Positions 1 through 59,275 of a stretch of DNA of 59,275 nt are shown in pieces. The position numbers and the translations under genes were made by a program. Source of the DNA: a virus. Each line of letters opens with the position of its first letter. The first letter of the stretch is position 1. The stretch is taken from the IMG/VR virus record IMGVR_UViG_3300043499_000045, positions 1-59,275 of that record; one strand, written 5' to 3'. The notes under the pieces are model-generated. The model saw only the letters and a list, made by a program, of their open reading frames with translations, did not search any database and was not told the origin of the DNA.

Positions 1-85
1 AGACCCAGTGTTTGTCGAGGCCCAGAAGTTCGCCAAGAGCGTCAAGGCTGGTGTGATCAAGCCGGACTTCACCAAGGCACCGGAT
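1..85. repeat. Contig-end overlap, left copy, segment 1
   Basis: These 85 bases are identical to 58615..58699. Together with the 99-base match 165..263 = 59177..59275 they show that the contig ends overlap. The two matches are interrupted by unlike sequence, 79 bases here and 477 bases (including an HNH gene) at the right end. Confidence 0.95.
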
Positions 86-115
86 GCAACAGGCGACGAA
101 GACATTCCATTCTAA
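1..115 (+). CDS. 3' end of a second allele of the SSB-like gene (partial)
   Basis: This is the last 37 codons of the single-stranded DNA-binding-like gene whose full copy lies at 57869..58729; the 5' part is outside the window. Bases 1..85 match 58615..58699 exactly. The last codons differ: this copy ends PDATGDEDIPF, the full copy ends PDNGDDSEIPF. Both keep the acidic tip and terminal IPF typical of bacterial and phage SSB C-termini, which bind replication partners. It is the other end of a circular overlap, not a separate gene. Confidence 0.85.
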   Translation, partial: DPVFVEAQKFAKSVKAGVIKPDFTKAPDATGDEDIPF

Positions 116-164
116 TTCCCCTGCGGGGGATACAGCCGGGCGACAGCGGCAAACTAGCGAGTGC

Positions 165-263
165 GGTGGTTGATGGAACTCCGGCCGCATGAGCACTGAA
201 GACTAATCTGCCACACGCCCTGCGATCTACAAACAGAGTGGCTTGAGCCTGGGTATGCCGAGA
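165..263. repeat. Contig-end overlap, left copy, segment 2 (noncoding)
   Basis: These 99 bases are identical to 59177..59275 and lie in the gap between the SSB-like gene and the gene at 293. No reading frame uses them. Short complementary arms are visible (for example TGCGG and CCGCA near 161..190, GGC/GCC near 241..250), so it may be a structured leader, but I cannot assign an RNA family. No clear tRNA fold is present. Confidence 0.9.
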
Positions 264-292
264 AAACTGCCCACCTCCAACAGAAAGGAATT

Positions 293-2329: not shown

Positions 2330-2338
2330 AACCAGCCC

Positions 2339-3000: not shown

Positions 3001-3007
3001 TTTCCTC

Positions 3008-3262: not shown

Positions 3263-3323
3263 CCAGCAAAATATTTTCGCCAAATCGCCAGAAGCGGGCA
3301 AATTTCGATTACATTAAATGCAT

Positions 3324-3342: not shown

Positions 3343-3359
3343 AAAACAGAAAGCACGAA

Positions 3360-3581
3360 ATGATTAAGCACCTCGAACTGACGCCCGCCAAGACCTACGT
3401 TTCCCGCGACAACGCCATCAAGGCAGTCGAAAAGACCTTCGGCCCGCGCGTCACCGCCGAGAACGGCGAGCGCCTTGACTTTGTCATTGTGGCGAACGCC
3501 GAAGGCCGCTTCTTCCCGATGTTTTTGGGCGAACGTGCATTGCAAGCCGGGATGCACTTCCACTTTTGCGTCGCTAATTAA
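3360..3581 (+). CDS. Small hypothetical protein, 73 aa
   Basis: ATG chosen because AACAGAAAG ends six bases upstream; the longer frame to 3318 would run through the leader hairpin. The product is a mixed alpha/beta soluble protein (LDFVIVANAEGRFFPMFLG in the centre). Its layout of short strands and a KAVEKTFGP helix is common in small phage proteins; no family assigned. Confidence 0.7.
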   Translation: MIKHLELTPAKTYVSRDNAIKAVEKTFGPRVTAENGERLDFVIVANAEGRFFPMFLGERALQAGMHFHFCVAN

Positions 3582-3621
3582 ACAAAAGAGAGGGCGCTAT
3601 ACGCGCCCCAGGAGAACAACT

Positions 3622-3951
3622 ATGTCGTATTTCAAGAATATCCCGCCCCGTCCCAACTGCATCTTTTGCGGCAAGCCCGTCGCAGACGAGGCCTGGGACG
3701 AAGAGTCGCACGGCTGGTTCAGCTATGGACCGAACTGCATGATGTCGCACCCGCAAGGCCGGTACGCCGTCAAGATGACCGAGGGCGAATTGTCGATCAT
3801 CTATGCGGTCAAGCTGACCACGCTGGCCCGCGCGGTGTCGATGGCCGACTACCTGACGCGGTCCAACCCGCAATACAAAGGCAAAGTAAAGTTCGAAGCT
3901 GTCGACCTGGGCAAAGGCATCAGCTACGAGTGCAAGACCAACCACCACTAA
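3622..3951 (+). CDS. Hypothetical protein with N-terminal CxxC
   Basis: 109 aa, start fixed by CAGGAGAAC eight bases upstream. CIFCGKP near residue 14 is a possible half zinc knuckle, with a second Cys in GPNCMMS about 22 residues on and His near it; this could bind one zinc. Remainder is helical (LSIIYAVKLTTLARAVSMADYL). Preceded by a small GC hairpin, GGGCG ctatacg CGCCC, at about 3592..3608. Function unknown. Confidence 0.7.
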   Translation: MSYFKNIPPRPNCIFCGKPVADEAWDEESHGWFSYGPNCMMSHPQGRYAVKMTEGELSIIYAVKLTTLARAVSMADYLTRSNPQYKGKVKFEAVDLGKGISYECKTNHH

Positions 3952-3967
3952 GCAGGAGATTAAAACA

Positions 3968-4168
3968 ATGAGCTTTGAGAACTACGCCGCCAGCATCGCA
4001 GAGAAGGCAGAGGCACGTGCCGCCGCAATGGCAGCGATGCAGCCGCTTTACGAAGCCGCACGCAAGCGCATCCTGCCTGATCTGAAGGATCATGGACTGG
4101 TGGAGGCCATCCGCCGCCATGAGATGCGCAAGCTCGCGATTGATCGCGCTATCAACGAGACACTTTGA
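3968..4168 (+). CDS. Small helical protein, 66 aa
   Basis: Ala/Arg/Glu-rich and predicted all-helical. AGGAGAT is about nine bases upstream of the ATG. Not recognised. Followed by a 104-base gap with a promoter for the next gene. Confidence 0.65.
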   Translation: MSFENYAASIAEKAEARAAAMAAMQPLYEAARKRILPDLKDHGLVEAIRRHEMRKLAIDRAINETL

Positions 4169-4212
4169 AACACTCAAGCTGGCGAACTGAGCAATTCAGC
4201 GTCGCCAGCGCC

Positions 4213-4218
4213 TATAAT
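4213..4218 (+). promoter_or_regulatory. TATAAT -10 box for 4273
   Basis: GCCTATAATCC in the gap before the DUF932-like gene; the leader CCAGAAAGG follows at about 4258, just before the ATG at 4273. A perfect -10 hexamer in noncoding sequence; the -35 is not clear. Confidence 0.55.
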
Positions 4219-4272
4219 CCAAACACCGCAGCAATTGTTGCAGCGGAATTACCCCACCAGAAAGGCTACCCC

Positions 4273-5079
4273 ATGAACAAGCTCCTCGCCCTGACCAACA
4301 CCGACATCGCCCAATACGCTCCGAGCATTTTTGCCGACGAGCCAGCACCCGGTGCCTCCTCCCGCTACCAATTTGTGCGCACCATTGAGGTGATCGACAC
4401 CATGCGCAACGCCGGTTTCGAAGTTGTCCAAGCGTCGCAGTCAAAGACCTACAGCGCCGAGAAAAAGCCTTATGCGAAGCACCTTGTCCGGCTGGTGCAT
4501 CGCGACTACCTTGAAGGCAAACTGCAGGTCGGTGATTTTGTCCCAGAGATCGCCATGACGAACAGCCACAACCGCACGTCGGCCTACCACATGATGGCCG
4601 CGCTGAAGGTGCTGGCCTGCCTTAACGGCATGATGCTTCCCTCAGCGCAATACGGCAACATCCGCGTCTTGCACAATGACCCGCGCATGATGGACCACAT
4701 CATTGACGGCACGGACCTGATCCGCGAAGTGCACATGAACCACGCGCTGCCGCGCATCGAGCGCATGAAGCAGATCGAATTGAGCAAGCAGCAAGCAGTC
4801 GATTTTGCGACTGGTGCGACGCTGCTGAAGTGGGGCGAAAAGCGCCCAGACCACGCCGATGGCCTGCTCTCGGTGCGCCGCGCGGAAGACGATAGCAACA
4901 CGCTCTGGAGCGTCTTCAACCGCGTCCAAGAAAACGCCATGAAGGGCGGCTACCTCGCCCAGGATCGCGGTGGCCGCAACGTGAAGACCGCAGGGATCAA
5001 CTCGGTCAACCGCGACATCGACTTCAACGCAGGCATCTGGACCTTTGCCAACCGCGTGCTGGACATCGTCGCCGCTTAA
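4273..5079 (+). CDS. DUF932-family protein
   Basis: 268 aa. The central part contains the hallmarks of DUF932 (phage and plasmid proteins related to YfjQ/YafZ): FVPEIAMTNSHNRTSAYHM, then a Cys/Asn-Gly step (LACLNGMM) and a long helical C-terminal half. The family role is not established; members are common on plasmids and phages near anti-restriction and replication genes. The ATG was chosen over one at 4165 because the promoter TATAAT and a CCAGAAAGG site lie between them. The gene ends just before the hairpin that leads gene 5126. Confidence 0.8.
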   Translation: MNKLLALTNTDIAQYAPSIFADEPAPGASSRYQFVRTIEVIDTMRNAGFEVVQASQSKTYSAEKKPYAKHLVRLVHRDYLEGKLQVGDFVPEIAMTNSHNRTSAYHMMAALKVLACLNGMMLPSAQYGNIRVLHNDPRMMDHIIDGTDLIREVHMNHALPRIERMKQIELSKQQAVDFATGATLLKWGEKRPDHADGLLSVRRAEDDSNTLWSVFNRVQENAMKGGYLAQDRGGRNVKTAGINSVNRDIDFNAGIWTFANRVLDIVAA

Positions 5080-5082
5080 GAA

Positions 5083-5118
5083 TAGAATGGGGCTTCGGCC
5101 CCAGCCCCCAACAGAAAG
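5083..5118 (+). promoter_or_regulatory. Promoter, UUCG hairpin and leader for 5126
   Basis: TAGAAT (5083..5088) is followed at once by GGGGC TTCG GCCCC (5089..5102), a 5-bp GC stem closed by the very stable UUCG tetraloop, then AACAGAAAG (5110..5118). The hairpin would form close to the 5' end of the transcript, where it could protect the mRNA. It could also act as a short terminator for the upstream gene, though no T-run follows. Confidence 0.55.
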
Positions 5119-5125
5119 GTACATC

Positions 5126-5380
5126 ATGCTTCGCATCAGCCACCACACCGCCGTCGCCGCCTTGACGGAATCGGATTATCCTTTTATCTTTACCGGCGAG
5201 GCTTCGAGCCTGGACATGGTGCCCGGTGAATGGCCCGAATCGTTTGAGCTTGTCGACTTCCCTATCGGCAACGACAAACCCTTTTTCCGATTCAAGGACA
5301 TTGTCGAAGCCGACGAACTCGTCGCTGTCGAATACCGGCAGCAAGACGGCACCATAACCATCCGCGTCTACAACGACTGA
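5126..5380 (+). CDS. Small acidic protein, 84 aa
   Basis: Not recognised. Start given by AACAGAAAG seven bases upstream. Acidic, with predicted beta strands (FELVDFPIG, VAVEYRQQDGTITIRVY). Stop is one base before the next start. Confidence 0.7.
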   Translation: MLRISHHTAVAALTESDYPFIFTGEASSLDMVPGEWPESFELVDFPIGNDKPFFRFKDIVEADELVAVEYRQQDGTITIRVYND

Positions 5381-5381
5381 C

Positions 5382-5594
5382 ATGACGGTCCTACCCTGGG
5401 CCAAGTGGCCTGCGCTCCAGAAGGAGCGCGTGCGCCGAGAGGTCGGATTGCGCATGGACGCCGCGCACGTCGGCACGCGCCACGAGATCATCTGCGCAGC
5501 GCTCTACGAGCTTTATCCATACGCCGTCACGGACGCAACCTACGACGACCTTGTCCGCGATATCTACGCCGACATCAAAAGCAACCAGCAATAA
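5382..5594 (+). CDS. Small helical protein, 70 aa
   Basis: Starts two bases after the previous stop, so probably coupled. N-terminal basic helix (WPALQKERVRREVGLRMD), then a helical C-terminal half. Not recognised. Confidence 0.65.
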   Translation: MTVLPWAKWPALQKERVRREVGLRMDAAHVGTRHEIICAALYELYPYAVTDATYDDLVRDIYADIKSNQQ

Positions 5595-36822: not shown

Positions 36823-36923
36823 GTCCGGCGCAAAACCAAGGCATATTTGCTAACACATTGTTGCTAGCTGGGCAATAGCCAAATCAATCCCCACTAATTT
36901 AGTCGGGATTATGGCTGGCCCTA
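36823..36923 (-). promoter_or_regulatory. Divergent gap: probable start region of leftward structural unit
   Basis: About 100 AT-richer bases between gene 36508 (leftward) and the promoter of gene 36987 (rightward). There is a short palindrome ACTAA-T-TTAGT near 36893. No convincing sigma70 promoter is seen on the leftward strand, so a middle or late promoter needing another factor is possible. Confidence 0.4.
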
Positions 36924-36980
36924 TTGCGTTACGCTTTAACGGCGTGCTATAGTTGGGCCATCGCAACCCCAAACAGAAAG
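36924..36980 (+). promoter_or_regulatory. Promoter and leader for 36987
   Basis: TTGCGT (36924..36929), 18-base spacer, TATAGT (36948..36953) within GTGCTATAGT (extended -10), then AACAGAAAG (36972..36980) six bases before ATG. Almost the same 60-base module is found at 37599..37655, and its centre GTTACGCTTTAACGxCGTGC also precedes 40848. Confidence 0.8.
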
Positions 36981-36986
36981 CACGAA

Positions 36987-37553
36987 ATGAACGCCAACCA
37001 CACATTCACCCGAGTCCGCGTGATCGAAGACGAAGCCGCTTACGAAGCCGCCATCAAGCGCCGGATCAAGAACGCCTCGCAAGACAAGTTCTTCCGCGAG
37101 AACACCGACGCCCAGGAAGTCCTCGACTGCCTGCGCCAAGCGTCCAACTGGTCCGAGTTTGCAAAATCCCTGATGGCTTCCTACGAAGAGCGCGGAACGC
37201 TAAGCCCTGCCCAATTGAACGCAGGTCGCAGCATGCTTGCCAAGCAGAAAGAAAAAGCAGCCGCGAAGGTCGCAGCCCGCAACGCACCGGCAACCTCTGG
37301 ACGCCACCTGAGCACAATCGGCCAGCGCGAGACCTTTACGCTGACGATCAATAAGCTGATGGAAATGGAAGGCATGTACGGCACCTCCTACCTGCATATT
37401 TGCGCCGACGCCAACGGCAACTCGGTGGTGTACAAAGGCACTTCGGAGCTTGGCAAGCAAGGCGAGACGGTAACGGTCAAGGCAACGATCAAAGAGCACA
37501 CTGCTTACAACGGCGTTGCCCAGACGACGATCAACCGCCCCAAAGTGCTGTAA
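36987..37553 (+). CDS. Hypothetical protein, 188 aa
   Basis: First gene of the rightward 8-kb island. Start set by AACAGAAAG. N-terminal half is highly charged and helical (RVIEDEAAYEAAIKRRIKNA), middle Lys/Ala-rich (AKQKEKAAAKVAARNAPA), C-terminal half beta-rich (FTLTINKLMEMEGMYGTSYL, VTVKATIKEHTAYNG). Not recognised. Followed by an intrinsic terminator. Confidence 0.7.
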   Translation: MNANHTFTRVRVIEDEAAYEAAIKRRIKNASQDKFFRENTDAQEVLDCLRQASNWSEFAKSLMASYEERGTLSPAQLNAGRSMLAKQKEKAAAKVAARNAPATSGRHLSTIGQRETFTLTINKLMEMEGMYGTSYLHICADANGNSVVYKGTSELGKQGETVTVKATIKEHTAYNGVAQTTINRPKVL

Positions 37554-37564
37554 AGCAGGCAAAG

Positions 37565-37590
37565 CCCGACCAAGCAGGTCGGGTTTATTT
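37565..37590 (+). terminator. Intrinsic terminator
   Basis: CCCGACC, five-base loop, GGTCGGG, then TTTATTT. A clear rho-independent terminator just after gene 36987 and just before the next promoter, so the two genes are separate transcription units. Confidence 0.85.
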
Positions 37591-37598
37591 AGCCCCTA

Positions 37599-37655
37599 TT
37601 GCGTTACGCTTTAACCGCACGCTATAATTGCGCCATCGACACCCCAAACAGAAAG
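37599..37655 (+). promoter_or_regulatory. Promoter and leader for 37662
   Basis: TTGCGT (37599..37604), 18 bases, TATAAT (37623..37628), then AACAGAAAG (37647..37655). Near-duplicate of the module at 36924. Confidence 0.8.
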
Positions 37656-37661
37656 CAGCAA

Positions 37662-37877
37662 ATGACCTCCAAGCCCACCGCCGCCGCAGCCTACGCGATG
37701 CACGTCGCTAACATCGAAGCCCAGATCGCCACCTTGCAAGCCAAGCTCGCCAAGCACAAAACCACGCCGGTCAAGCCCGGTTCCGACAGCTTCGCCTCCT
37801 GGGGCAAAGTAGGCGACCTCGCGCACGTCAGCGAAACCCTGACCGAGATCAACGAATTCTTCGGCAGCGCACTGTGA
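37662..37877 (+). CDS. Small helical protein, 71 aa
   Basis: Ala/Lys-rich N-terminal helix (AYAMHVANIEAQIATLQAKL) with a heptad-like pattern, then a short C-terminal acidic helix. Possible coiled-coil dimer. Stop overlaps the next GTG. Not recognised. Confidence 0.65.
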   Translation: MTSKPTAAAAYAMHVANIEAQIATLQAKLAKHKTTPVKPGSDSFASWGKVGDLAHVSETLTEINEFFGSAL

Positions 37878-38071
37878 AAATTAACCCCCCACTCATGGCC
37901 GTCGATTACACCCTGAACGAATTGCGCGCACGCCTGCCAGCGCTGCGCGAGCAAAGGGAAAACCCCAGCGTCGCATCAAGCTACAATCGCTTGGTCGGAA
38001 AGATCGACGCACTGGAAGCGGTTAAACGCTTGCTAGAAACCGGTTCCTACTTTGAACTGCGACTACTCTGA
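37874..38071 (+). CDS. Small helical protein, 65 aa
   Basis: GTG start overlapping the previous stop (GTGA); an ATG seven codons on is an alternative. Predicted two helices (LNELRARLPALREQRENP; VGKIDALEAVKRLLE). Not recognised. Confidence 0.6.
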   Translation: MKINPPLMAVDYTLNELRARLPALREQRENPSVASSYNRLVGKIDALEAVKRLLETGSYFELRLL

Positions 38072-38081
38072 AAGGCAAAGC

Positions 38082-38276
38082 ATGAAGCAACGCGACAAGG
38101 AAAACACGGTGGACGAGATGGTCGTCTACTTTAATAGGCACCCCAACATCCGCACGGCAACTCGGACGCTAAGCGTACAGAACGTCGAAGACCTGGAGGA
38201 ACTTGGCTTTCGAGTTAGGCCAGTGCGCGGTGAATCTGGCGTGTACCGCCGTTGTTTAATTGAGCGACGCGATTGA
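38082..38276 (+). CDS. Small protein, 64 aa
   Basis: CTGAAAGGCAAAGC before the ATG. Charged, with an ELGFRVRPV strand. Its stop lies just before the TATAAT of the next gene. Not recognised. Confidence 0.6.
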   Translation: MKQRDKENTVDEMVVYFNRHPNIRTATRTLSVQNVEDLEELGFRVRPVRGESGVYRRCLIERRD

Positions 38277-38279
38277 TGG

Positions 38280-38305
38280 TATAATTGCGGCACACCAACA
38301 GAAAG
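38280..38305 (+). promoter_or_regulatory. Promoter -10 and leader for 38312
   Basis: TATAAT 38280..38285 and AACAGAAAG 38297..38305, the same spacing as at 39080/39097. The string ATAATTGCGGCACACCAACA is shared with 39081 onward. Confidence 0.7.
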
Positions 38306-38311
38306 CACAGA

Positions 38312-38500
38312 ATGAAGATCAGCAAGCAAGACCTCACGATGACCCTGGGCACCGCCGCCGACATGGTCGCACGCGCGGACAAATTTGAGCCGCACCAATT
38401 GGCAAGGGCGCGTGTTGTGGTCGCCTACTGGGCTGCGCTGCGCGCCAAGCAAGCTCGCACAAAAGCAACAAAAGCCGCAAAGACTTGCGTGACGCGATAA
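38312..38500 (+). CDS. Small basic helical protein, 62 aa
   Basis: Starts MKISKQDLTMTLG, ends in a Lys/Ala-rich helix (RAKQARTKATKAAKTC) that could bind nucleic acid. Its last codons contain the TTGCGT -35 of the next promoter. Not recognised. Confidence 0.6.
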   Translation: MKISKQDLTMTLGTAADMVARADKFEPHQLARARVVVAYWAALRAKQARTKATKAAKTCVTR

Positions 38501-38541
38501 CGCGATGCTATAATTGCCACATCGCAACCCCAAACAGAAAG
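38485..38541 (+). promoter_or_regulatory. Promoter and leader for 38548
   Basis: TTGCGT (38485..38490), 18 bases, TATAAT (38509..38514), AACAGAAAG (38533..38541). The -35 lies in the coding end of the gene upstream; the string GTGACGCGATAACxxGATGCTATAAT recurs at 40031..40056. Confidence 0.8.
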
Positions 38542-38547
38542 CACCAA

Positions 38548-38808
38548 ATGACCAAAGTCAAAGCCCACCTCCTGAGCATCGCCCTGATCAAAGGCAACCT
38601 GAAGCTGGCCGCGCACCTCGCCATGCTGGCATCCATTGAATACGGCAACACGGTCAACCTCGACAACGCCTACGCAAAGGTCAAGGACGCGATTACGCCG
38701 AAGCAATGGTCGGGATACCTGGGCGCATTGGCAAAGGATGGTGTGTATGCACCTTGCACCGACCCGGACTTCGCTGGCTTCTACGGCACCTTGACCACAT
38801 ACGCCTAA
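38548..38808 (+). CDS. Small helical protein, 86 aa
   Basis: Predicted all-helical N-terminal two thirds (LLSIALIKGNLKLAAHLAML), and a C-terminal region with GVYAPCTDPDFAGFYG. Not recognised. Confidence 0.65.
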   Translation: MTKVKAHLLSIALIKGNLKLAAHLAMLASIEYGNTVNLDNAYAKVKDAITPKQWSGYLGALAKDGVYAPCTDPDFAGFYGTLTTYA

Positions 38809-42489: not shown

Positions 42490-43163
42490 GTCCAGTGGTC
42501 ATCGGGAACGCAACGCTCTACCTGGGCGATTGCGCTGAGATACTTTTATCCTTGCCAAAGGTCGACGCGGTCATCACCGATCCGCCTTATGGCATCGGCG
42601 CATCGTCCAAGAAGTTTATCAACGGCACCTCGAAATGGAGCAAGGACTACTACGAGGACGTTTGCTGGGACACTGCGCCGCCCGATAACATGTTGATCAA
42701 ACTGGTCGTCGCAATGGGCGAGGTCGCGATCCTCTGGGGCGGCAACTACTTCGACCTCCCGCCTTCGCGCTGCTACCTCGTCTGGGATAAAATGATCCGC
42801 GACTTCAGCTACGCCGACTGCGAGTTCGCCTGGACGAATCAAGACGCCAACGCTCGCATCAAATCGCTGAGCACCGCCGCTGCAACTGGCGACGGCCGCG
42901 TCCATCCAACGCAAAAACCACTCGAGCTTATGCACTGGTGCATCGCGCAATGCAAAAACAACCCGCAGACCGTGCTCGACCCATTCATGGGGTCAGGGAC
43001 CACCGGCGTTGCTGCTGTACAATTGGGCCGCAGCTTTATTGGGATTGAGCGCCTGCCAAAGTACTTCGACATCGCTTGCGAGCGAATCGCGCTGGCCTAC
43101 GCGCAGCGTCCCCTCTTTGAGCCCGAACCATTTAAACCACCCGTGCAACTGAGGATCGAATGA
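42486..43163 (+). CDS. DNA methyltransferase, beta class, copy 1
   Basis: 225 aa. Motif IV DPPYG (32..36) comes first and motif I DPFMGSGTTGVAA is near the C-terminus, the order of beta-class N6-adenine/N4-cytosine methyltransferases. Middle part about 50..140 (WSKDYYEDVCWDTAPPDN, ILWGGNYF) probably holds target recognition. Its first 35 residues and last 30 residues are close to those of the two genes downstream. ATGA overlaps at both ends indicate one operon. Confidence 0.9.
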   Translation: MSPVVIGNATLYLGDCAEILLSLPKVDAVITDPPYGIGASSKKFINGTSKWSKDYYEDVCWDTAPPDNMLIKLVVAMGEVAILWGGNYFDLPPSRCYLVWDKMIRDFSYADCEFAWTNQDANARIKSLSTAAATGDGRVHPTQKPLELMHWCIAQCKNNPQTVLDPFMGSGTTGVAAVQLGRSFIGIERLPKYFDIACERIALAYAQRPLFEPEPFKPPVQLRIE

Positions 43164-43909
43164 ATAGCCCCGTCATCGTCGGAGACGCAACGCTCTACCT
43201 GGGCGATTGCCGCGAGATACTTCCATCGCTGCCAAAGGTCGACGCCGTCATCACCGACCCACCCTACTCGGAGCAGTGCCACACCGGGCACGACGCTGGC
43301 TCGCGCGCTGGCAACGACGGCGCTGTGCGCTCGACACTTGGCTACTCGGCGCTGACCCAGGCCGACGTGCTTGCGCTGGCCGACGCCTACGTCGCTGCGT
43401 CGGTGTCCTGGGTCGTCTGGATGACCGATAGCAACCTCGCCATGCAAGTGCGCGCAGCGTTGGAGCAACGGGGGCTTTGTACATTCTCGCCGCTGCCGTT
43501 CTACCAACCTGGACGCAGCATTCGCCTATCGGGCGACGGGCCGTCAAGCTGGACGGACTGGATCGTCGTCGCACGCACAAAGGCCGCGCACAAATGGGGC
43601 ACGCTGCCTGGAGGCTACATCGCTGGGCCTGGATGGAATGATAAGGCACTCATGGGCGGCAAACCAACCGCGCTCATGGACGCACTGGTCATGGACTACA
43701 CGCGCCTGGGCGCGACGGTGCTCGACTCGCACATGGGCGCTGGGACGACCGGCATCTCTTGCATGAGGACCGGCCGCAAGTTCATCGGCTGCGAGATAGA
43801 CCCTGCGACCTTCGACATCGCCTGCCACCGCATCGAGCAAGCGTACAACCAACGGCCGCTCTTCATGCCCGAGCCGCTGAAGCCGCAAGAGCAACTCGGA
43901 CTGATCTAA
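43160..43909 (+). CDS. DNA methyltransferase, beta class, copy 2
   Basis: 249 aa. Motif IV here is DPPYS (33..37), in the same local context as copies 1 and 3. Motif I is DSHMGAGTTGIS. The middle region (SEQCHTGHDAGSRAGNDGAV, WVVWMTDSNLAMQVRAALE) is unlike the other two, so specificity should differ. Overlaps copy 1 by ATGA; copy 3 begins directly after its stop. Confidence 0.88.
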   Translation: MNSPVIVGDATLYLGDCREILPSLPKVDAVITDPPYSEQCHTGHDAGSRAGNDGAVRSTLGYSALTQADVLALADAYVAASVSWVVWMTDSNLAMQVRAALEQRGLCTFSPLPFYQPGRSIRLSGDGPSSWTDWIVVARTKAAHKWGTLPGGYIAGPGWNDKALMGGKPTALMDALVMDYTRLGATVLDSHMGAGTTGISCMRTGRKFIGCEIDPATFDIACHRIEQAYNQRPLFMPEPLKPQEQLGLI

Positions 43910-44599
43910 ATGCACAAAGTCATCATCGAGAACGCGACGCTCTACCTGGGCGATTGCCGCGACATCCTGCCGACGCTGGGCAAAGTCGATGCCGTCATCA
44001 CCGACCCACCTTATGGCATCAACTACGGGAAGCTGATGAAGGGAAAAGGCGACGGGAACGGCGGCTTAGATCGCAATCGATGGAAGGACTACGCTGCGTT
44101 CGACTGGGACACTGATCGCCCAAGCCGCGAGGTCTTTGACTTGCTGCGCGACGTCAGCAAGCAGCAGATAATTTGGGGCGGCAACTACTTCGCTGATCTT
44201 CTCCCGCCATCCATGCAGTGGTTGGTGTGGGATAAGTGCCAAACGTTTTCGCTCGCTGACTTTGAGCTTGCCTGGACGTCGCAGCAGAAAGCCGCACGCC
44301 TCTTCCGGCTATCTCGCCCAGAAGCCCTGCAAGATGGTCGCCAGCACCCGACGCAGAAGCCGATTGCGTTGATGAAATGGTGCATTGCAATTGTCAGCGA
44401 CGCACTCGAGATCGTTGATCCATTCATGGGATCAGGGACCACCGGCGTTGCTGCAGTCGAAATGCGCAAAGGCTTCATCGGCATCGAGCGCGAGCCTGCG
44501 TACTTCGATATCGCGTGCAAGCGCATCGCGCACGCCTACAACCAGCCGCCACTCTTTGACGAACCAATGAATCCGCAAGAGCAGATCGGGCTAATTTAA
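43910..44599 (+). CDS. DNA methyltransferase, beta class, copy 3
   Basis: 229 aa. DPPYG (32..36) and DPFMGSGTTGVAAVEMRKGF, and a middle closer to copy 1 (IIWGGNYFADLLPPSMQWLVWDK) than to copy 2. With no cognate restriction endonuclease in sight it probably protects phage DNA or alters expression. Confidence 0.9.
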   Translation: MHKVIIENATLYLGDCRDILPTLGKVDAVITDPPYGINYGKLMKGKGDGNGGLDRNRWKDYAAFDWDTDRPSREVFDLLRDVSKQQIIWGGNYFADLLPPSMQWLVWDKCQTFSLADFELAWTSQQKAARLFRLSRPEALQDGRQHPTQKPIALMKWCIAIVSDALEIVDPFMGSGTTGVAAVEMRKGFIGIEREPAYFDIACKRIAHAYNQPPLFDEPMNPQEQIGLI

Positions 44600-50472: not shown

Positions 50473-50584
50473 GCAAAACTTCAAATCTTCTAACCTTTCC
50501 GAGTTTGGCGGTACGAAGGCATGTAAAGCATTACATGCCCCCCTATAGCGACATCGAGAGATCTTAGAAGATTTGAAGTTTTGC
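50473..50584 (-). terminator. 21-bp inverted repeat with following T-run, and nested hairpin
   Basis: Arms GCAAAACTTCAAATCTTCTAA (one base over 20 is avoided in text elsewhere; positions 50473..50493) and the exact reverse complement 50564..50584, 70 bases apart. Read leftward the second arm is followed by TTTTTTGCTTTT, which fits a long intrinsic terminator. The inside carries GGCATGTAA agca TTACATGCC. It lies just after the helicase stop. Confidence 0.7.
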
Positions 50585-52415: not shown

Positions 52416-53380
52416 GTATTATCTCCATAGAAAGGTCCGCGCGTGCGCTGGCCCAATCGAATAACTTCATCAGCGACCCAGGACTCGAGGTCGCCCCAGT
52501 TGCGTGTCTCGCAATGGCCGTGGTGGCACTTGAAGCCGCCCATGTAGCCATTCTTTTTCATAGGGGGTGCCACGGCAGCGCCGGTGTTTGCGCGGGCGGT
52601 ATGTCCATCGATCCAAGGACACGTAATATCCATCCATCCAGACCCCGTCGAATTCTTGACGCGCTTGAGCAGCTTGAGCGCTTCCTTGACGATCTCGTAT
52701 CCGCGTTTGCGTTCGATGGTCACACCGTCAGTTGGCTCAGCGTAGTTCCGGTGGCGTTCGACGAGGTGGAATGTTCTGGTGAAGTCTTGCCAAGAGGTGC
52801 GGATGCTTGGATTCCATTGCCACACCCTGCAGCGCCAAGGCTTGCCGTCGACAAGCGACGTCGGCTTGCCGTTGATGCCTTCAGGCAAGCGCAGCACGCG
52901 GGTTACGCCTGCCATACCTGGATCAGCGCCGCCGCCTGTTAGCTTCTCGATGATCAGGCGAATGGCGTCTGTGACGTGGTCGACGTCAGCGCGCGGTTCG
53001 TCCAAGAAGAACGACGCCTGGAAGTTCCCAGGCGATGTCTCGATGACCAACGTTGGTTGAAGCTCGCGCGGGATATCCGCGAGCGAGATCTTTGTACCAA
53101 TGTCATCGATCATAATGCACCACGTTCGACTGAACTGCGCCTTGCGCCGTTTGAATCGACCTTCTTCTTCATGGAACGAACTGATCGCTACATAATTATT
53201 TCGGTCGTGGTGCAAAGGACAAGCAACGCCGTTATGCCACGGCACGCCGATCCATGCTTTAGGGTCAGCCTCGCTCGGATTCCCTTTTAATGAGCAGAGG
53301 ATGGCTCGTTCATCTGGTCCTAAACCTTTGAAAAGTTCGGCCAGCACAATGTCGTTGGTCACGCCAACTTGGAGGGGCAC
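52412..53380 (-). CDS. DNA primase, RepB/AEP-like
   Basis: 322 aa. CIMIDDIGTKI is followed by LVIETSPGNFQASFFLDEP, the pattern of RepB-like archaeo-eukaryotic primases; MIDD supplies the metal-binding carboxylates. A C-terminal zinc-type part has ITCPWIDGHT and GGFKCHHGHC. GTG start because CCAGAAAGG lies eight bases upstream and a promoter is present. With helicase it should form a replisome core. Confidence 0.8.
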   Translation of the reverse strand: MPLQVGVTNDIVLAELFKGLGPDERAILCSLKGNPSEADPKAWIGVPWHNGVACPLHHDRNNYVAISSFHEEEGRFKRRKAQFSRTWCIMIDDIGTKISLADIPRELQPTLVIETSPGNFQASFFLDEPRADVDHVTDAIRLIIEKLTGGGADPGMAGVTRVLRLPEGINGKPTSLVDGKPWRCRVWQWNPSIRTSWQDFTRTFHLVERHRNYAEPTDGVTIERKRGYEIVKEALKLLKRVKNSTGSGWMDITCPWIDGHTARANTGAAVAPPMKKNGYMGGFKCHHGHCETRNWGDLESWVADEVIRLGQRTRGPFYGDNT

Positions 53381-53433
53381 TTTCTGGACCTTTCTGGTGT
53401 TGCTGCTGGGCTAGCCCGTAGGCTTGGCCCTAC

Positions 53434-53461
53434 ATTCTACTCGATTTTCCTGGGATGGCAA
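53434..53461 (-). promoter_or_regulatory. Leftward promoter for primase unit
   Basis: TTGCCA (53461..53456), 16 bases, TAGAAT (53439..53434). Drives unit B. It faces the rightward promoter at 53485. Confidence 0.7.
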
Positions 53462-53484
53462 GTGGTGCTGAACCATTGGGGTTA

Positions 53485-53512
53485 TTGACACAGCGGCAAA
53501 TTATGCTACAGT
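53485..53512 (+). promoter_or_regulatory. Rightward promoter for unit A
   Basis: TTGACA (53485..53490), 16 bases, TACAGT (53507..53512) within TGCTACAGT (extended -10). Leader CCAGAAAGG follows. Together with 53434..53461 this is a divergent control region. Confidence 0.8.
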
Positions 53513-53542
53513 CCGGCCACCCGCAAACCAGAAAGGTCAGAA

Positions 53543-53797
53543 ATGGAATTGAACTGCTTATTCGAAAACGCCCGCTACATCGTCTGCCAGATCAAAGGCA
53601 GTGGTGCGCTCCATAGCGAAGGCATCGAAGTCGTCAGCAAAGAGAATCACTGCGCCGCGTACCTTACCGGCAGCATGAGAAAAGTCTTCATGCGTCAGAT
53701 GAAAAGCTGGCGCGCACAAACCCCGAACGAAGATGAAGTCGAAGCGCGCCTCGACGAGTTTCTCGTGCTCAACACGAACCCCCTTGTCCTGCACTAG
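53543..53797 (+). CDS. DUF3567-like protein
   Basis: 84 aa. Layout: N-terminal NCLFENARYIVCQI, then GIEVVSKENHCAAYLTGSM, a basic helix, and a C-terminal EDEVEARLDEFL..NTNPLVLH. DUF3567 proteins of Betaproteobacteria have the same order, with EIVDK near residue 30 and PVVLH/PVVMH at the end. Host-derived or host-mimicking; family function unknown. First gene of unit A. Confidence 0.7.
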   Translation: MELNCLFENARYIVCQIKGSGALHSEGIEVVSKENHCAAYLTGSMRKVFMRQMKSWRAQTPNEDEVEARLDEFLVLNTNPLVLH

Positions 53798-53818
53798 CGG
53801 ACAAACAGAAAGCCAGAA

Positions 53819-54370
53819 ATGAACGCCCAAACCCCACCAAGCTCGTGGCCGAACAAATGGCCGCACCCGACCACCAAGCCCTACACCGCAGAAGTGCAAC
53901 TCATCCACATTCCCCCAGGCACCAGATTCGGCAAGCTAACCGTTATCAAACGAGGAGAAAACATTGGCAAGAACCGCAGCCTCTTAGTCGAGTGCGATTG
54001 CGGCACCTTCAAGACCGTCCAAGCGCGGTACCTGCGAAGCGGCACAACGACGTCTTGCGGCTGCGCGCGAACCAACACCGCCAATAGCGGCATCAAGAGC
54101 AGCCATCCGTTGTACCAGATATGGAAGAACATGCACGGCCGTTGCTATAACAGGAAGCACGGTGGCTATAGCGGCTGCGGTGGCCTGGGCATCAAGGTCT
54201 GCGAGCGCTGGCACAACTTTGCGGTGTTTATCTCGGACATGGGCGAGCGTCCACCGAAGACGCAACTCGTGCGAGTGAAACCGATGCAAGACTATACGCC
54301 AGAGAATACACGCTGGCTGACTCCAATGAAGAAACGCGCGGTGCAAATTGAACACGCCACTGCCGCATAA
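53819..54370 (+). CDS. AP2/HNH-type homing endonuclease-like protein
   Basis: 183 aa. N-terminal strand-rich domain with CDCGTFKTVQARYLRSGTTTSCGC, a zinc- or AP2-like DNA-binding module, then WKNMHGRCYNRKHGG, GIKVCERWHNFAVFISDMGERP and YTPENTRWLTP, a pattern shared by many phage homing-endonuclease-related proteins. The typical catalytic H/N/H set is not evident in full. Likely DNA-binding or mobile gene. Confidence 0.65.
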   Translation: MNAQTPPSSWPNKWPHPTTKPYTAEVQLIHIPPGTRFGKLTVIKRGENIGKNRSLLVECDCGTFKTVQARYLRSGTTTSCGCARTNTANSGIKSSHPLYQIWKNMHGRCYNRKHGGYSGCGGLGIKVCERWHNFAVFISDMGERPPKTQLVRVKPMQDYTPENTRWLTPMKKRAVQIEHATAA

Positions 54371-55916
54371 TTTCAAGTACAAGACCGCGCCACGCGGCAA
54401 GCAGCGCGAGGTCATCGACGCGACCTGGGACCAGCCGATGCACGCCTTTTTGTGTCGGCCCGGTACCGGGAAGACAAAACTCGGCCTGGACACGGCCGCA
54501 GCCAATTTCCTCGTTGGGCGGATCGACGCGCTGCTGGTTATTTGTCCTGAAGGCGTCGACCGACAATGGATTGAGGAAGGCGTCCCCAAGCATTGCGCGG
54601 TGCCGACCATTTGCGGCAACTATTACTCGTCCATTGGGAAAACCGCTTTTACGAAGCTGGAGCGAATGGTGCTGGCAACACCGCCCAATGACACGCTCTT
54701 CATTCTCACCATGAGCTTCGACGCCTTGCAGACGACGCGCGGCAAGAGACTCGTGCAATTGCTGCAAACGGTCAAACGCTACATGTGCAACGTCGACGAA
54801 AGTCATCGCGTGAGCAATCCGAAGTCGGACGTATACAAAGCGGTGAAACCTGTTATGCGCATGGCCCGCGTCCGGCGCATCGGGACCGGCACGCTGATCC
54901 GGCAAAATCCGTTCAGCGCATGGGGTCAGTTTGAGCTAATGAGCGACGCGATGCTAGGCTACTCGAGCTTGGCGGCGTTCAAGAGCACCTACGCCATGAT
55001 GCTCGCACCGAGCAGCCCGTTGGTGCAGCACATCACAAAAGACCTCAAGGCCAAGGGGCGGCTGCGGCATGACCGCCAAGGCAACCCGATCTATCCCGCG
55101 ATCATTGCCAAGGATGAAGAGGACCGGCCGATATACAAAAACCTGGGCGACCTGCGCAAGCGCATCGAGAAGGTCTCGTCCTTCTTGACGCTGGAGGATG
55201 TCAATGGCACGGAGCCAAACATCAATCAAGACCCACGCTACGTCACGCTGGAGCCGCATCAGCAGGCAAGCTATGACGAGCTTATAAAGTGGGGCGTGAC
55301 GCAAGCCCCAGGTGGCCAGCTAACCGCCGAGGGGGCGCTGGCGCTGGCGATCCGGCTGGCGCAGGTTGTGGGGGGCTTTGCCCCGAGCGATGATGACCCA
55401 CAGGCGCAGCCCATCACGCCAGCGGGCAAGAATCCGAAGGTGCAAGAGCTGCTCCAGATCGCCCAGGATTGCGAGGGCGAGAAGCTCGTTATCTGGTGTC
55501 GCTTCTCTGCGGAGATCGATATTGTGGTCGACACGCTCGCAGAGGAATATGGGGCGGCTGCTGTGACCCAATATCACGGCCGCATGACGGGAAGAGAGAA
55601 GGACGCAAGTAAGAAACGCTTCATCGCTGACCCGGCGTGTCGGTTCTTTGTCGGTCAGCAGAAGTCAGGCGGCACCGGCCTGGATGGTTTGCAAGGCGTG
55701 GCGAGCTACATGGTTTTTTACAGCAACGATTATTCTGCGCTCGAACGTTTGCAAGCCATCAGCCGCCTCGCGCGCACGGACGGTGCAAATACGGTGCAGG
55801 TCTACGACCTGATGGCGCAGCACACCATAGACGAGGACATCGTGCGTTGCTTGCAAGCCGCACGGGACGTCAGCGAGGTTGTCCTACAGGCAGCAATTGC
55901 CCATGTTTGGACATAG
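54348..55916 (+). CDS. SNF2-like DNA helicase/translocase
   Basis: 522 aa, TTG start overlapping the previous gene by 23 bases. Walker A FLCRPGTGKTKL (near residue 37), motif II NVDESHRV, and the C-terminal RecA-like half with LVIWCRFSAEIDIVV, QYHGRMTGREK, GGTGLDGLQ and SRLARTDGANTVQVYDL. All SF2/SNF2 helicase elements are in place. Possibly remodels DNA-protein complexes or drives recombination. Confidence 0.85.
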   Translation: MNTPLPHNFKYKTAPRGKQREVIDATWDQPMHAFLCRPGTGKTKLGLDTAAANFLVGRIDALLVICPEGVDRQWIEEGVPKHCAVPTICGNYYSSIGKTAFTKLERMVLATPPNDTLFILTMSFDALQTTRGKRLVQLLQTVKRYMCNVDESHRVSNPKSDVYKAVKPVMRMARVRRIGTGTLIRQNPFSAWGQFELMSDAMLGYSSLAAFKSTYAMMLAPSSPLVQHITKDLKAKGRLRHDRQGNPIYPAIIAKDEEDRPIYKNLGDLRKRIEKVSSFLTLEDVNGTEPNINQDPRYVTLEPHQQASYDELIKWGVTQAPGGQLTAEGALALAIRLAQVVGGFAPSDDDPQAQPITPAGKNPKVQELLQIAQDCEGEKLVIWCRFSAEIDIVVDTLAEEYGAAAVTQYHGRMTGREKDASKKRFIADPACRFFVGQQKSGGTGLDGLQGVASYMVFYSNDYSALERLQAISRLARTDGANTVQVYDLMAQHTIDEDIVRCLQAARDVSEVVLQAAIAHVWT

Positions 55917-55937
55917 CGTCCGATTATCCTCTACAAT
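55907..55937 (+). promoter_or_regulatory. Promoter for 55972
   Basis: TTGGAC (55907..55912), 19 bases, TACAAT (55932..55937), then CCTAGAAAGGGAG before the ATG. The -35 sits in the end of the helicase gene. Confidence 0.55.
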
Positions 55938-55971
55938 ACTCAATCTTTCACCCCTAGAAAGGGAGCCAATC

Positions 55972-56337
55972 ATGAAACCCGGCCGCGTTTTTATTACCCA
56001 GAATCCCATGCGTCGCAACGTCTACAACGAGCTTGTATATAAGTACGACCTCACGGCTGCGCGCGAGTTTGGCACGCTTGATGTGCTCCTGCCATCAGGC
56101 CCGGTGTTAATCTCGCCCCAGCTTTCCGTCGCGCAGATGCGCGCGAAGCTGCGCGACTTCAAACCGAACGACTGGCTGCTTTGCCTGGGCGACCCGGTGG
56201 TCATCGCAGCGGCAAGCGCCATCATTGCCGAGGTGAATGGCGGCATCGTTCCGGTGCTAGTGTGGGACCGGCAGGTCAAGAAATACTTGTCGATAGTCAT
56301 CGACATTCATCCCGCGACGGCCGAAGCCGTGGCATAA
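55972..56337 (+). CDS. Hypothetical protein, 121 aa
   Basis: ATG after CTAGAAAGGGAGCC. Mixed alpha/beta with RVFITQNPMRRN and LLCLGDPVVIAAASAI. A similar protein without known function occurs before SSB genes in some phages. Its stop overlaps the -10 of the next promoter. Confidence 0.7.
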   Translation: MKPGRVFITQNPMRRNVYNELVYKYDLTAAREFGTLDVLLPSGPVLISPQLSVAQMRAKLRDFKPNDWLLCLGDPVVIAAASAIIAEVNGGIVPVLVWDRQVKKYLSIVIDIHPATAEAVA

Positions 56338-56338
56338 T
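56333..56338 (+). promoter_or_regulatory. CATAAT -10 overlapping a stop
   Basis: GGCATAATC: CATAAT contains the TAA of the previous gene; the leader TTAGAAAGG follows, before the ATG at 56363. Confidence 0.45.
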
Positions 56339-56362
56339 CACCCCACTTAGAAAGGACGAAAG

Positions 56363-56644
56363 ATGCTGATCAAAATACAAAGCGTGCTCACGAATGTATG
56401 GCACACCGAAGACCTGCCAGTGACCCAGGAGGAACTCGACTCTTGGAAAAACGGCAGGCTCGTGCAGGAAGTATTTCCGCACCTCACTCCCGACCAACGG
56501 CAGTTCCTCATCTCCGGCGTGACTGCAGAGGAATGGGAGAAAGCGTTTGGCGACGAGGACAATATCGACCCGCGCGATCTTGTCAAGATCGCGATGACGG
56601 CTGGCAAGACCGTCATTGTCATCGACCAGAGGTCGCCGGAATGA
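56363..56644 (+). CDS. Small protein, 93 aa
   Basis: Contains VQEVFPHLTPDQRQFLISGVTAEEWEKAFG, a motif common to small phage proteins (F.L....RQFL.SG). Function unknown. ATGA overlap downstream. Confidence 0.7.
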   Translation: MLIKIQSVLTNVWHTEDLPVTQEELDSWKNGRLVQEVFPHLTPDQRQFLISGVTAEEWEKAFGDEDNIDPRDLVKIAMTAGKTVIVIDQRSPE

Positions 56645-56865
56645 CGCTCGCAGAAGAACGTCAGCGCCTCGATCTCGACGTGCGCATCATGGAGAAAAAG
56701 GGTTTCGCCGCAGCGCTCTTTGGCGTGATGTCGCACGCCACCATAAGCGGTTCGCGCCAGCACGGCAAAGCCCTGTACGACATTCTGCAAGCGGTCTATC
56801 GGGACATCGAATTGCTCGAGACGCAGAAGGCCATCAACGCTCAACAGGAGGCACGCTATTCATGA
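56641..56865 (+). CDS. Small helical protein, 74 aa
   Basis: Helical, DLDVRIMEKKGFAAALFGVM and a C-terminal YRDIELLETQKAINAQQEA. ATGA overlaps at both ends. Not recognised. Confidence 0.65.
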   Translation: MTLAEERQRLDLDVRIMEKKGFAAALFGVMSHATISGSRQHGKALYDILQAVYRDIELLETQKAINAQQEARYS

Positions 56866-57065
56866 CCGCCGTCGCATATCTACGCCCAGACAACACCGAG
56901 AACAATTGCACGGTCTCAGGTGACCCAGAAGGAAAGGTCGGCCGCGCCCACGCCTGGATGTGGGAAAGCGCCGAGAGCAACTATCGCATCTGCACCACGT
57001 GCGGTCGACGCGAGTTCAATAGCCGCAGCAAACAGGAGCCGCAAGATGATCCACGGCCCGATTAA
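56862..57065 (+). CDS. Small protein with C-terminal CxxC, 67 aa
   Basis: AGGAGGCACGCTATTC before ATG, the strongest ribosome-binding site in this cluster. CTTCGRRE near residue 45 and another Cys near residue 16 may bind metal. Not recognised. Overlaps the next gene by 20 bases. Confidence 0.65.
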   Translation: MTAVAYLRPDNTENNCTVSGDPEGKVGRAHAWMWESAESNYRICTTCGRREFNSRSKQEPQDDPRPD

Positions 57066-57270
57066 ACAGGATCGAGATTATATCGAGCTTGTCACCGGCA
57101 TGACATTCACGGTGCTTGCCGCGAACACCGATGGCACGCTCAACACCGAGACGGTGCTGGAGGTGCTGGGCACGGAAGTGCCGTGCGTTGTGTACTATAA
57201 TCCGCACCATATTACGAAGACAATCGTGTGTGCAGAGACTGCATTTAGAGAAAGGTTCGAAGAGAAATGA
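57046..57270 (+). CDS. Small protein, 74 aa
   Basis: CAGGAGCCGCAAG before ATG. Beta-rich (DYIELVTGMTFTVLAANTDG; CVVYYNPHHITKTIVCAE). Contains TATAAT (57196..57201) within its codons, a possible promoter for the SSB genes. Confidence 0.65.
   Translation: MIHGPIKQDRDYIELVTGMTFTVLAANTDGTLNTETVLEVLGTEVPCVVYYNPHHITKTIVCAETAFRERFEEK
57196..57201 (+). promoter_or_regulatory. Possible promoter inside 57046, for the SSB operon
   Basis: GTACTATAATCC; the leader AGAAAGG follows about 50 bases later, before ATG 57267. Intragenic, so less certain. Confidence 0.4.
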
Positions 57271-57872
57271 ACGACGACAACATACCCAACTTCAGCGACT
57301 TCACGGACGGCGCAGCCCCAGACTTCAGCGGTGTCGAAGCCGAGCCGCCGCGCGAGGACCACTTGCAGATGCTTGGCTCAATGGCTGCGAAGCTGCGCGA
57401 GAAGATCAACGCCGTCGCAGACGCCCAGGCCAAGCTCGACCTCCTGACCGCCGACCTGAACCGGTACCAGCTTGGCGTCTTGCCTGAAGCGATGGAGCTA
57501 GCCGGTGTTGCGGACTACACGCTGACCGATGGCACGCGGCTTCTCATGCGACCGGACGTCAAGGCCAGCATCAGCATCGACAACCGCCCGTTCGCACACG
57601 GCTGGTTGCGCGAGAATGGCCACGGCGGCGTCGTGAAAGAATCTTTTCTGGTAGACTTGCGCACGTTGACCCCAGCGCAGCGCACGCAGCTTTATCACTC
57701 CATCATGGCTACGTACGAAGTGATGCCCGAGGTTCAAGAGTCAGTGCACGCAGCGACGCTGAAGTCGCTGGTAAAGGAATTGCTGGAGAAAGGCACCGCC
57801 CTGCCGCCTTCCATCAGCGTGTTTCAGTTCAAAAAGGCAGAGTTAAAAGAGATCAAGAAAGCGACGAAATGA
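57267..57872 (+). CDS. SSB-neighbour phage protein, 201 aa
   Basis: Acidic N-terminus, then coiled-coil helix (about 35..75), and TDGTRLLMRPDVKASI, AHGWLRENGHGGVVK, RTLTPAQRTQLY. This family regularly precedes phage SSB genes; function unknown, perhaps recombination-related. ATGA overlap with SSB. Confidence 0.75.
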   Translation: MNDDNIPNFSDFTDGAAPDFSGVEAEPPREDHLQMLGSMAAKLREKINAVADAQAKLDLLTADLNRYQLGVLPEAMELAGVADYTLTDGTRLLMRPDVKASISIDNRPFAHGWLRENGHGGVVKESFLVDLRTLTPAQRTQLYHSIMATYEVMPEVQESVHAATLKSLVKELLEKGTALPPSISVFQFKKAELKEIKKATK

Positions 57873-58729
57873 CCGACCAAACAACCGCACCGACAACACC
57901 GGCGCAATCCCAGGACGCACCCGAGGCATCAGCCAACGCAGTCGTCCCCAAACCGAACGGCGCTATGACCGAGACTGCAGGCGACGACTTCAGCGGCTTC
58001 GCTGGCGAAGGCTTCCAAGGTGCGACGAAGGACGACCTCGCGATTCCTTTCCTGTCCATCTTGCAATCGAATAGCCCCCAGGTGAAGCGCAGCGAGGGCG
58101 AATATATCGAAGGCGCGTTCGAAGGCATGTTGTACAACAGCGTGACGCGCGAAGTGCTGGACCCGGTGAAGGACAAGATTCTGATCATACCGTGCGTCTA
58201 CGAACGGTACTTCATCGAATGGCGCGTGCGCGAGAATGGCGGTGGCTTCAAAGGCCAGCACAGCGTCGAGGACGGCGAGACGCTCTTGACGAAGTCCATG
58301 CGCGACGACAAGAACCGCGACATCCTGGAGAACGGCAACCAGCTAAACGACACGCGCACCTTCTACGTCATGGTCTACAACGAGACCGAAGGCTACGCGA
58401 CGCCCGCGCTGATCACCATGACCTCGACGCAGATCAAGAAGGCGAAGCAATGGTATATGCAGCAGAATATGCTGAAGCTCAAAGGCCCGCACGGTCCCTA
58501 TACGCCGCCGATGTACGCCAGCAAGTGGCGCGTTGTCACGGTCCCTGAGAGCAACGAGAAAGGTTCTTGGATGGGCTGGGCCTTCTCGCATGAAGGTTAT
58601 CTCAAAGGCCCGCAAGACCCAGTGTTTGTCGAGGCCCAGAAGTTCGCCAAGAGCGTCAAGGCTGGTGTGATCAAGCCGGACTTCACCAAGGCACCGGATA
58701 ATGGCGATGATTCTGAGATCCCGTTCTAG
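57869..58729 (+). CDS. Putative single-stranded DNA-binding protein
   Basis: 286 aa. Disordered N-terminus, conserved body (DDLAIPFLSILQSNSPQV, ILIIPCVYERYFIEWRV, MYASKWRVVTVPES) and the acidic tip GDDSEIPF, equal in form to the IPF tip of bacterial SSB. Family members in phages are often annotated as SSB or Gp2.5-like; no exact match is claimed. It lies in the replication unit and its 3' end is polymorphic in the contig. Confidence 0.75.
   Translation: MTDQTTAPTTPAQSQDAPEASANAVVPKPNGAMTETAGDDFSGFAGEGFQGATKDDLAIPFLSILQSNSPQVKRSEGEYIEGAFEGMLYNSVTREVLDPVKDKILIIPCVYERYFIEWRVRENGGGFKGQHSVEDGETLLTKSMRDDKNRDILENGNQLNDTRTFYVMVYNETEGYATPALITMTSTQIKKAKQWYMQQNMLKLKGPHGPYTPPMYASKWRVVTVPESNEKGSWMGWAFSHEGYLKGPQDPVFVEAQKFAKSVKAGVIKPDFTKAPDNGDDSEIPF
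58615..58699. repeat. Contig-end overlap, right copy, segment 1
   Basis: Identical to bases 1..85. It lies inside the SSB-like gene and marks the left boundary of the region that differs between the two assembled alleles. Confidence 0.95.
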
Positions 58730-58731
58730 TC

Positions 58732-59169
58732 ATGCCCACTAAGCCTTGCATCAAATGCCTAAAAGAAAAGCCTCTCGAGGCTTTTTATCGGCACGCCATG
58801 ATGGCCGATGGGCATTTGAACAAGTGTAAAGAATGTGTGCGTGCATACGTTACCCAATATCGCCAAGAGAACAGCGAGAAGGTTCGAGCCTATGATCTTG
58901 AGCGATCTAAGTTGCCGTATCGAGTTGCGATGATGAAGCAGATAGTTGCCGATTACAAAGTAGATTATCCGAAGCGGGTCAAGGCGACGAATGCGGTGCA
59001 GCATGCGCTAAGGGATGGCCGATTGTCGAGACAACCGTGCTGGGTCTGCGGCGAGAAAGCCGTCGCTCATCATGCAGACTATGACCGGCCGCTTGACGTT
59101 GTATGGCTTTGTCAGGCGCATCACAAACAAACGCACGCACTAATAAACAGCCCGGCGACAGGGGCTTAG
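58732..59169 (+). CDS. HNH endonuclease-like protein (mobile gene)
   Basis: 145 aa. Two zinc ribbon-like parts: N-terminal CIKCLKEKPLEAFY..CKEC and C-terminal CWVCGEKAVAHHADYD..WLCQAHHKQTH, with HHADYD and CQAHH resembling an HNH core. It starts two bases after the SSB stop and is absent from the left-end allele, consistent with a free-standing homing endonuclease. Base use is a little more AT-rich than the neighbours. Confidence 0.8.
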   Translation: MPTKPCIKCLKEKPLEAFYRHAMMADGHLNKCKECVRAYVTQYRQENSEKVRAYDLERSKLPYRVAMMKQIVADYKVDYPKRVKATNAVQHALRDGRLSRQPCWVCGEKAVAHHADYDRPLDVVWLCQAHHKQTHALINSPATGA

Positions 59170-59176
59170 CTCGCGA

Positions 59177-59275
59177 GGTGGTTGATGGAACTCCGGCCGC
59201 ATGAGCACTGAAGACTAATCTGCCACACGCCCTGCGATCTACAAACAGAGTGGCTTGAGCCTGGGTATGCCGAGA
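59177..59275. repeat. Contig-end overlap, right copy, segment 2 (noncoding)
   Basis: Identical to bases 165..263 and running to the last base of the window. On a circular map the sequence continues at base 264. Confidence 0.95.

Follow-up and report, generated by a model that had tools for sequence, protein, structure and literature searches.

A candidate HNH homing endonuclease at the C-terminal tail codons of SSB-type genes in phages

The window analysed here, the whole 59,275 nucleotides of IMG/VR virus record IMGVR_UViG_3300043499_000045, carries two versions of one locus at its two ends, one with an HNH gene directly behind an SSB-like gene, and one lacking it. Sequence comparison makes it highly probable that the encoded protein is a free-standing HNH homing endonuclease, whose homing site is the DNA for the C-terminal tip (D-D-I-P-F, stop) of SSB-type proteins. 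The original prediction had read the locus as a homing-endonuclease insertion with a converted flank, and this is still the best reading in light of related phages that lack the gene (L005, L007-L010) or carry it (L006), and of isolated sister phages. It did not contain the wider pattern, in which such genes lie behind SSB-type tail codons in unrelated genes, and this is the more interesting part. On balance, we favor a widespread HNH family that uses one protein motif as its homing site, namely the D-D-I-P-F tip DNA of SSBs and of other replication proteins that have an SSB-like tail; such a family would invade unrelated genes, in viruses that infect several bacterial phyla, would sometimes leave an in-frame extension, and may mask or alter the tip by which the SSB contacts its partners.

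Two alleles at the ends of one contig

Direct string comparison bore out the predicted overlap of the contig ends. Bases 1-85 equal 58615-58699 and bases 165-263 equal 59177-59275, both exactly, and between these matches lie 79 bp (86-164) in the left allele versus 477 bp (58700-59176) in the right. All features are on the plus strand. The left allele opens with a copy of the 3' part of the target gene (1..85), followed at 86..131 by a tail reading ATGDEDIPF, a TAA stop and a short C/G hairpin. The right allele does hold the predicted HNH endonuclease-like gene, an intronless reading frame of 438 bp with an ATG start (58732..59169; 145 aa), and the 99 bp at the contig end (59177..59275), identical to 165-263, form the node at which the alleles rejoin. 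Differences between the alleles are limited to the immediate flanks; by blastn, 132-263 and 59147-59275 are 92.5% identical, and homology in the 3' flank reaches ~33 bp into the nominally different stretch.

The genome lengths implied by the two versions, 58,614 and 59,012 bp, are both correct, and the proposed circular map holds in that the HNH-containing version closes at 59,012 bp. A second IMG/VR contig, IMGVR_UViG_3300043587_000028 (L004/L095), is 100% identical to the window over 52808-59275 (6,468 bp) and continues past the junction into 132-5404 at 99.81%, with seven mismatches and one gap that are expected because the alleles differ there. Since this contig traverses the HNH-containing junction without a break, the junction is real. 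The record is classed in IMG/VR as a virus contig without end repeats, and a simple terminal repeat of a linear genome was rejected, as the ends differ within the overlap and L004 passes through the junction. The HNH-less allele is seen in the first ~164 bp of one contig only, and an exact DNA search of viral contigs with its core returned no match. The contig end falls exactly 99 bp past the point where the alleles rejoin, and 99 is a common assembler k-mer size. The simplest graph would be a closed loop from 165 to 59176 (59,012 bp) carrying the HNH allele, joined at the same node by what looks like a graph tip of the HNH-less allele, bases 1-164; this tip shares just 85 bp of identity with the main path, which would have been too little for the assembler to fuse its other end. 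From these contig ends we infer a population mixture of both alleles in one sample, in which a sister phage present alongside could have supplied the left tip.

It is unlikely, in our estimation, that the left end is instead a chimera, with bases 1-164 drawn from a second related phage and not a variant of the window genome. The sequence private to the tip amounts to only 164 bp, and its non-coding element E1 (described below) closely resembles the one in another phage, L006, as a chimera might predict. The flanking 85 and 99 bp are, however, identical to the main genome, whereas known relatives share only about 73-84% DNA identity with the window, and a chimera with a near-identical sister phage would be the same thing as an allele mixture.

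The HNH protein, its target gene and the adjoining elements

The HNH protein matches phrog_2340, annotated "endonuclease" (E 4.6e-31), and the HNH endonuclease family phrog_2255 (E 9.3e-8), and has weak similarity to the endonuclease VII family phrog_1035 (E 1e-14). Alignment with 39 relatives delineates an N-terminal module (58747..58836) with four invariant cysteines (C6, C9, C32, C35), and a C-terminal beta-beta-alpha-metal (HNH) module (59038..59148) comprising a CxxC pair, the run HHxDYxxPLxVxWLC, and H131 and H135; C103, C106, H113, H114, D116, C127, H131 and H135 are invariant across the same relatives. The predicted model (pLDDT 94.7) arranges the Cys4 module, long helices and the beta-beta-alpha-metal module from N- to C-terminus, with strands at 111-114 and 123-126 and a helix at 128-139, such that motif and predicted fold agree in assigning the protein to the HNH class. 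It matched no curated Pfam HNH or NCBIfam model, a PDB sequence search found nothing, and a fold search against PDB gave no significant hit, the best nuclease being Hpy99I (E 0.48).

The target gene (57869..58729, 286 aa) belongs to the Pam3_Gp34/phrog_2402 family and adjoins a Pam3 gp33-like gene. Its earlier label as SSB-like rests on the acidic IPF tail and on position, and the family has no known function; the predicted model (pLDDT 45) is too poor to judge an OB fold, and no relative of the protein was found in PDB. Translation confirmed the difference in tails, in that the right copy ends NGDDSEIPF, followed by TAG, two bases and the ATG of the HNH gene, and the HNH-less copy ends ATGDEDIPF and TAA. 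I-P-F is kept between the alleles through synonymous codons (CCG TTC for P-F in the HNH-containing allele), and the codons before it differ. The recoded last codons, stop and two spacer bases (58700..58731), unlike the left allele, are the probable converted 5' flank and homing site. The HNH gene lies inside neither an intron nor an intein, the target reading frame ending before it begins. No Rfam intron matched in the window or at the site, and neither E1 nor the insertion site matched Rfam at gathering or permissive thresholds; a group I intron or known RNA at the site was accordingly rejected.

It had been proposed to look for the HNH-less allele in related phages, and five (L005, L007-L010; target-gene identity 76-83%) have no HNH gene behind the target gene. 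L006 has a 56% HNH homologue at the same place, and the site is therefore polymorphic in the lineage as well as within the contig. In the HNH tree, built to look for independent arrivals in the window and in L006, both proteins fall in one seven-member group without resolved internal order. Among deposited phages, no DNA relative of the locus was found.

Behind the target gene lies E1, a two-hairpin non-coding element that spans 132..206 in the HNH-less allele and 59147..59218 in the HNH-containing allele, with further copies in L006 (5281-5355), L007 (907-992), L008 (4869-4945) and L009 (4825-4908). Its cells are 92.8% paired, 13 are changed on both sides, and its covariation score was reached in 0 of 500 shuffles, although covariation drawn from six related sequences is only suggestive. 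The HNH gene terminates within the first hairpin of E1, the hairpin lying inside its 3' coding end, and the alleles meet inside E1 on the 3' side. In the HNH-containing allele the 5' half of E1 (TTAGCTCGCGAGG) resembles L007 and L008, while its 3' half shows no difference from the left allele; two pairs in the second stem are mismatched. The converted tract appears to run from ~58700 to 59176, and its flank probably came from a related phage, as the chimeric halves of E1 and the mismatched second stem fit a short donor tract. A hammerhead reading of the CTGAAGA motif of E1 was rejected by eye, since the core does not match. A second conserved non-coding element, E2 (206..277; CTGCCACACGCC...GTGGCTTG..., also CTGCCACACGCC...GTGGC...), recurs in L005 (from 4882), L006 (from 5355) and L009 (from 2915); it stands behind the target gene with or without E1, and in L009 at another intergenic place, as if the two elements were modular. 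Surveys by pattern for E1 and E2 gave matches of which most seem fortuitous for patterns of the lengths searched. On the minus strand of another phage contig (L093, ~3678-3715) there is a possible E1-like hairpin showing a GTTGATGG...GAGCACTGAAG pattern. Elsewhere in the window are families of 70-140 bp direct repeats with 76-88% identity (42498-44599 and 36919-38553), and a large imperfect palindrome of 112 bp (50473-50584), 77% identical to its reverse complement.

E1 bears on whether the left allele is an ancestral empty site at all, or one that lost its HNH gene by deletion. Such deletions do occur, as in the coliphage ECO340P2 considered below, and the left-allele E1 is close to that of the HNH-containing L006, in which the HNH frame continues into E1. 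Yet the left allele has a clean stop, a hairpin of its own and no recognizable remnant of an HNH 5' end, and the corresponding sites in L005 and L007-L010 are simple and HNH-less; we consequently hold secondary loss to be quite improbable, and continue to read the left allele as an empty site.

Insertion sites in relatives and isolated phages

To place the window in context, we took the 80 top-scoring viral relatives of the HNH protein, three of which were cut by a contig end, leaving 77 assessable. A tail of the form [DEGSNT][IVL]P[FYW] ends no more than 75 bp upstream in 76 of the 77, and in the remaining one (L085) the upstream gene ends DFPDTEPF. Under a strict test, which required an open frame with the motif and a stop soon after, 75 of the 77 passed versus 140 of 21,625 random positions (0.65%), though independent events are fewer than these counts because some of the 80 are near-duplicates, and some lineages may have the adjacency by descent. 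The two misses were L081, which is cut short close to a contig end, and L077, in which a single frame of 250 codons (3695-4444) joins an SSB-like protein, a DDDIPF tail, a linker and the HNH. A looser, any-frame control was satisfied by 2.7% of random positions. In a separate scan of GTDB genomes, each of the 12 full-length relatives lies behind a ...PF or ...PW tail; the records are named for Verrucomicrobiales, Lentisphaeria, Spirochaetes, Bacteroides, Myroides, several Proteobacteria and others. A 13th match (L250) covers just 62 residues and has a different context. Matches of the HNH in Staphylococcus phages overlap polA.

Among 64 upstream genes scanned, Pfam identified SSB PF00436 in 12 and Pam3_Gp34 in two, and PHROG assigned phrog_18154 to 22, phrog_7364 to 18 and phrog_44 to 12, all three annotated as single-strand DNA binding protein; the gene upstream in L013 is phrog_743. 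In L046, L052, L053, L054, L057 and L060, a small phrog_23504/phrog_31018 protein ending IPF or LPF, which is not a recognized SSB, precedes the HNH. Because the upstream genes are a mixture of unrelated families, the adjacency does not trace to one event, and the comparison points to a fixed insertion site in similar DNA of unrelated hosts. Among distinct tails that precede an HNH gene, the proline codon is CCT in 43 of 61 and the phenylalanine codon TTT in 53 of 61, a bias suggestive of a mobile unit that begins within the I-P-F codons and regenerates them.

Isolated phages supply filled, empty and decayed sites. Within Phapecoctavirus, Mt1B1_P17 and ZCKP1 read DDDIPFAPIGLQYGRNFLHCF, a stop and then the HNH gene; ESCO5, ukendt and ECO340P1 read DDDIPF and stop; in AV125, nepoznato and phiWec188 an HNH gene of a second type abuts the stop codon; and ECO340P2 keeps the extension but has lost the middle of its HNH gene while retaining the two ends, a deletion remnant that represents a stage of decay. 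Among Drexlerviridae, the site is filled in ACG-M12 and phiEB49, and empty in G8, EC3a and PCEc3. In the Seunavirus KE23, the HNH gene follows ...DDDTPFAPIGLQYANHAIYVL and the stop of a DNA primase/helicase with a DxDTPF end; KE22, which is 99.1% identical to KE23 over the matched region, reads ...DNDTPF and stop without an HNH gene. The tail codons, and not the SSB gene as such, therefore predict the site. Upstream divergence near the filled coliphage sites is only slight. Taken together, the window alleles, KE23 and KE22, and Mt1B1_P17 and ESCO5 are instances of presence and absence at one site in genomes otherwise nearly identical. In several named phages (L220, L222, L219, L224, L225, L252), IPF is followed by additional in-frame residues such as APIGLQYGRNFLHCF, and similar extensions follow unrelated SSBs and a primase/helicase; as the inserted unit adds this extension, the SSB tip is no longer the C-terminus.

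It is very improbable that the HNH protein is instead the working part of a recombination cassette (an endonuclease VII-like resolvase or an SSB-recruited nuclease), kept beside the SSB by joint action and varying in presence as cassettes ordinarily do, since its weak endonuclease VII similarity and the Erf/Sak4 annealing proteins and RecE-like exonucleases among several neighbors are offset by its absence from most near-identical sisters, its loss by deletion, its occurrence at tail codons of primase/helicase and small non-recognized-SSB proteins, and an insertion that replaces the stop codon and lengthens the partner's tail.

A homing model and its relation to known systems

Intronless homing is established in T4: the allele that lacks the gene is nicked or cut by a free-standing nuclease, and its repair brings in the gene along with short flanking stretches (PMC2988022). 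By a similar route, the enzyme described here would, in a mixed infection, cleave one or both strands at the tail codons of a genome without the HNH gene, and repair would copy in the HNH gene and a short flank from the HNH-containing genome. The tail would thereby be rewritten with other codons of the same protein character or, in other phages, acquire a short in-frame C-terminal extension; with a recoded or extended tail, the product would presumably remain functional and the DNA would cease to be attacked. The filled allele would presumably be safe because its site is recoded or displaced. The window may have caught both states, as a closed HNH-containing circle of 59,012 bp and a 164-bp HNH-less graph tip. 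Escape by mutation would be hindered because the targeted codons are under protein constraint, as described for inteins and group I introns (PMC2814812). Under the homing reading, a selfish gene is linked to a short motif that is constrained by its function in DNA replication proteins, and the natural filled, empty, decayed and fused sites, including those in isolated coliphages, make homing, resistance through recoding and the cost of SSB-tip extension measurable.

Other homing families clustered near essential genes have been described, with no SSB-tail class among them (PMC10448857), and our search, mostly of openly accessible papers, found none on an HNH family at SSB-tail codons, which does not prove novelty. 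The closest parallel in target is SegG of T4, a free-standing GIY-YIG homing endonuclease with insertion site 32/59, which targets gene 32, the T4 SSB (PMC2988022). Both are free-standing nuclease genes that adjoin a phage SSB or SSB-like gene, the target of SegG and the putative target here, with co-conversion of flanks in T4 and probably in the window. Unlike the window gene, segG adjoins gene 32 at its promoter end and contains its promoters, and it is a single gene of another nuclease family, whereas the window HNH belongs to a family apparently tied to one motif at C-terminal tip codons. The Mob endonucleases of T4 and Aeh1 (MobE; PMC2988022) are likewise HNH proteins of intronless genes and are preferentially inherited in mixed infection, but their target genes differ, and their HNH module is N-terminal with a C-terminal DNA-binding region, the reverse of the N-terminal Cys4 and C-terminal HNH arrangement predicted here. 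F-CphI of cyanophage S-PM2 (PMC6083498), an Endo VII-motif homing endonuclease, is also free-standing and has a C-terminal zinc-bound catalytic module, and the window HNH for its part has the weak endonuclease VII similarity (phrog_1035) given above; F-CphI has, however, a DHDH core and targets psbA, in contrast to the HHxDYxxPLxVxWLC core and SSB-type tail of the window HNH. Finally, the proposed strategy resembles that of inteins and group I introns (PMC2814812) in homing into codons that the host protein can hardly change, but it differs in requiring no splicing, as the HNH gene follows the tail, and the protein simply ends there or gains a short extension.
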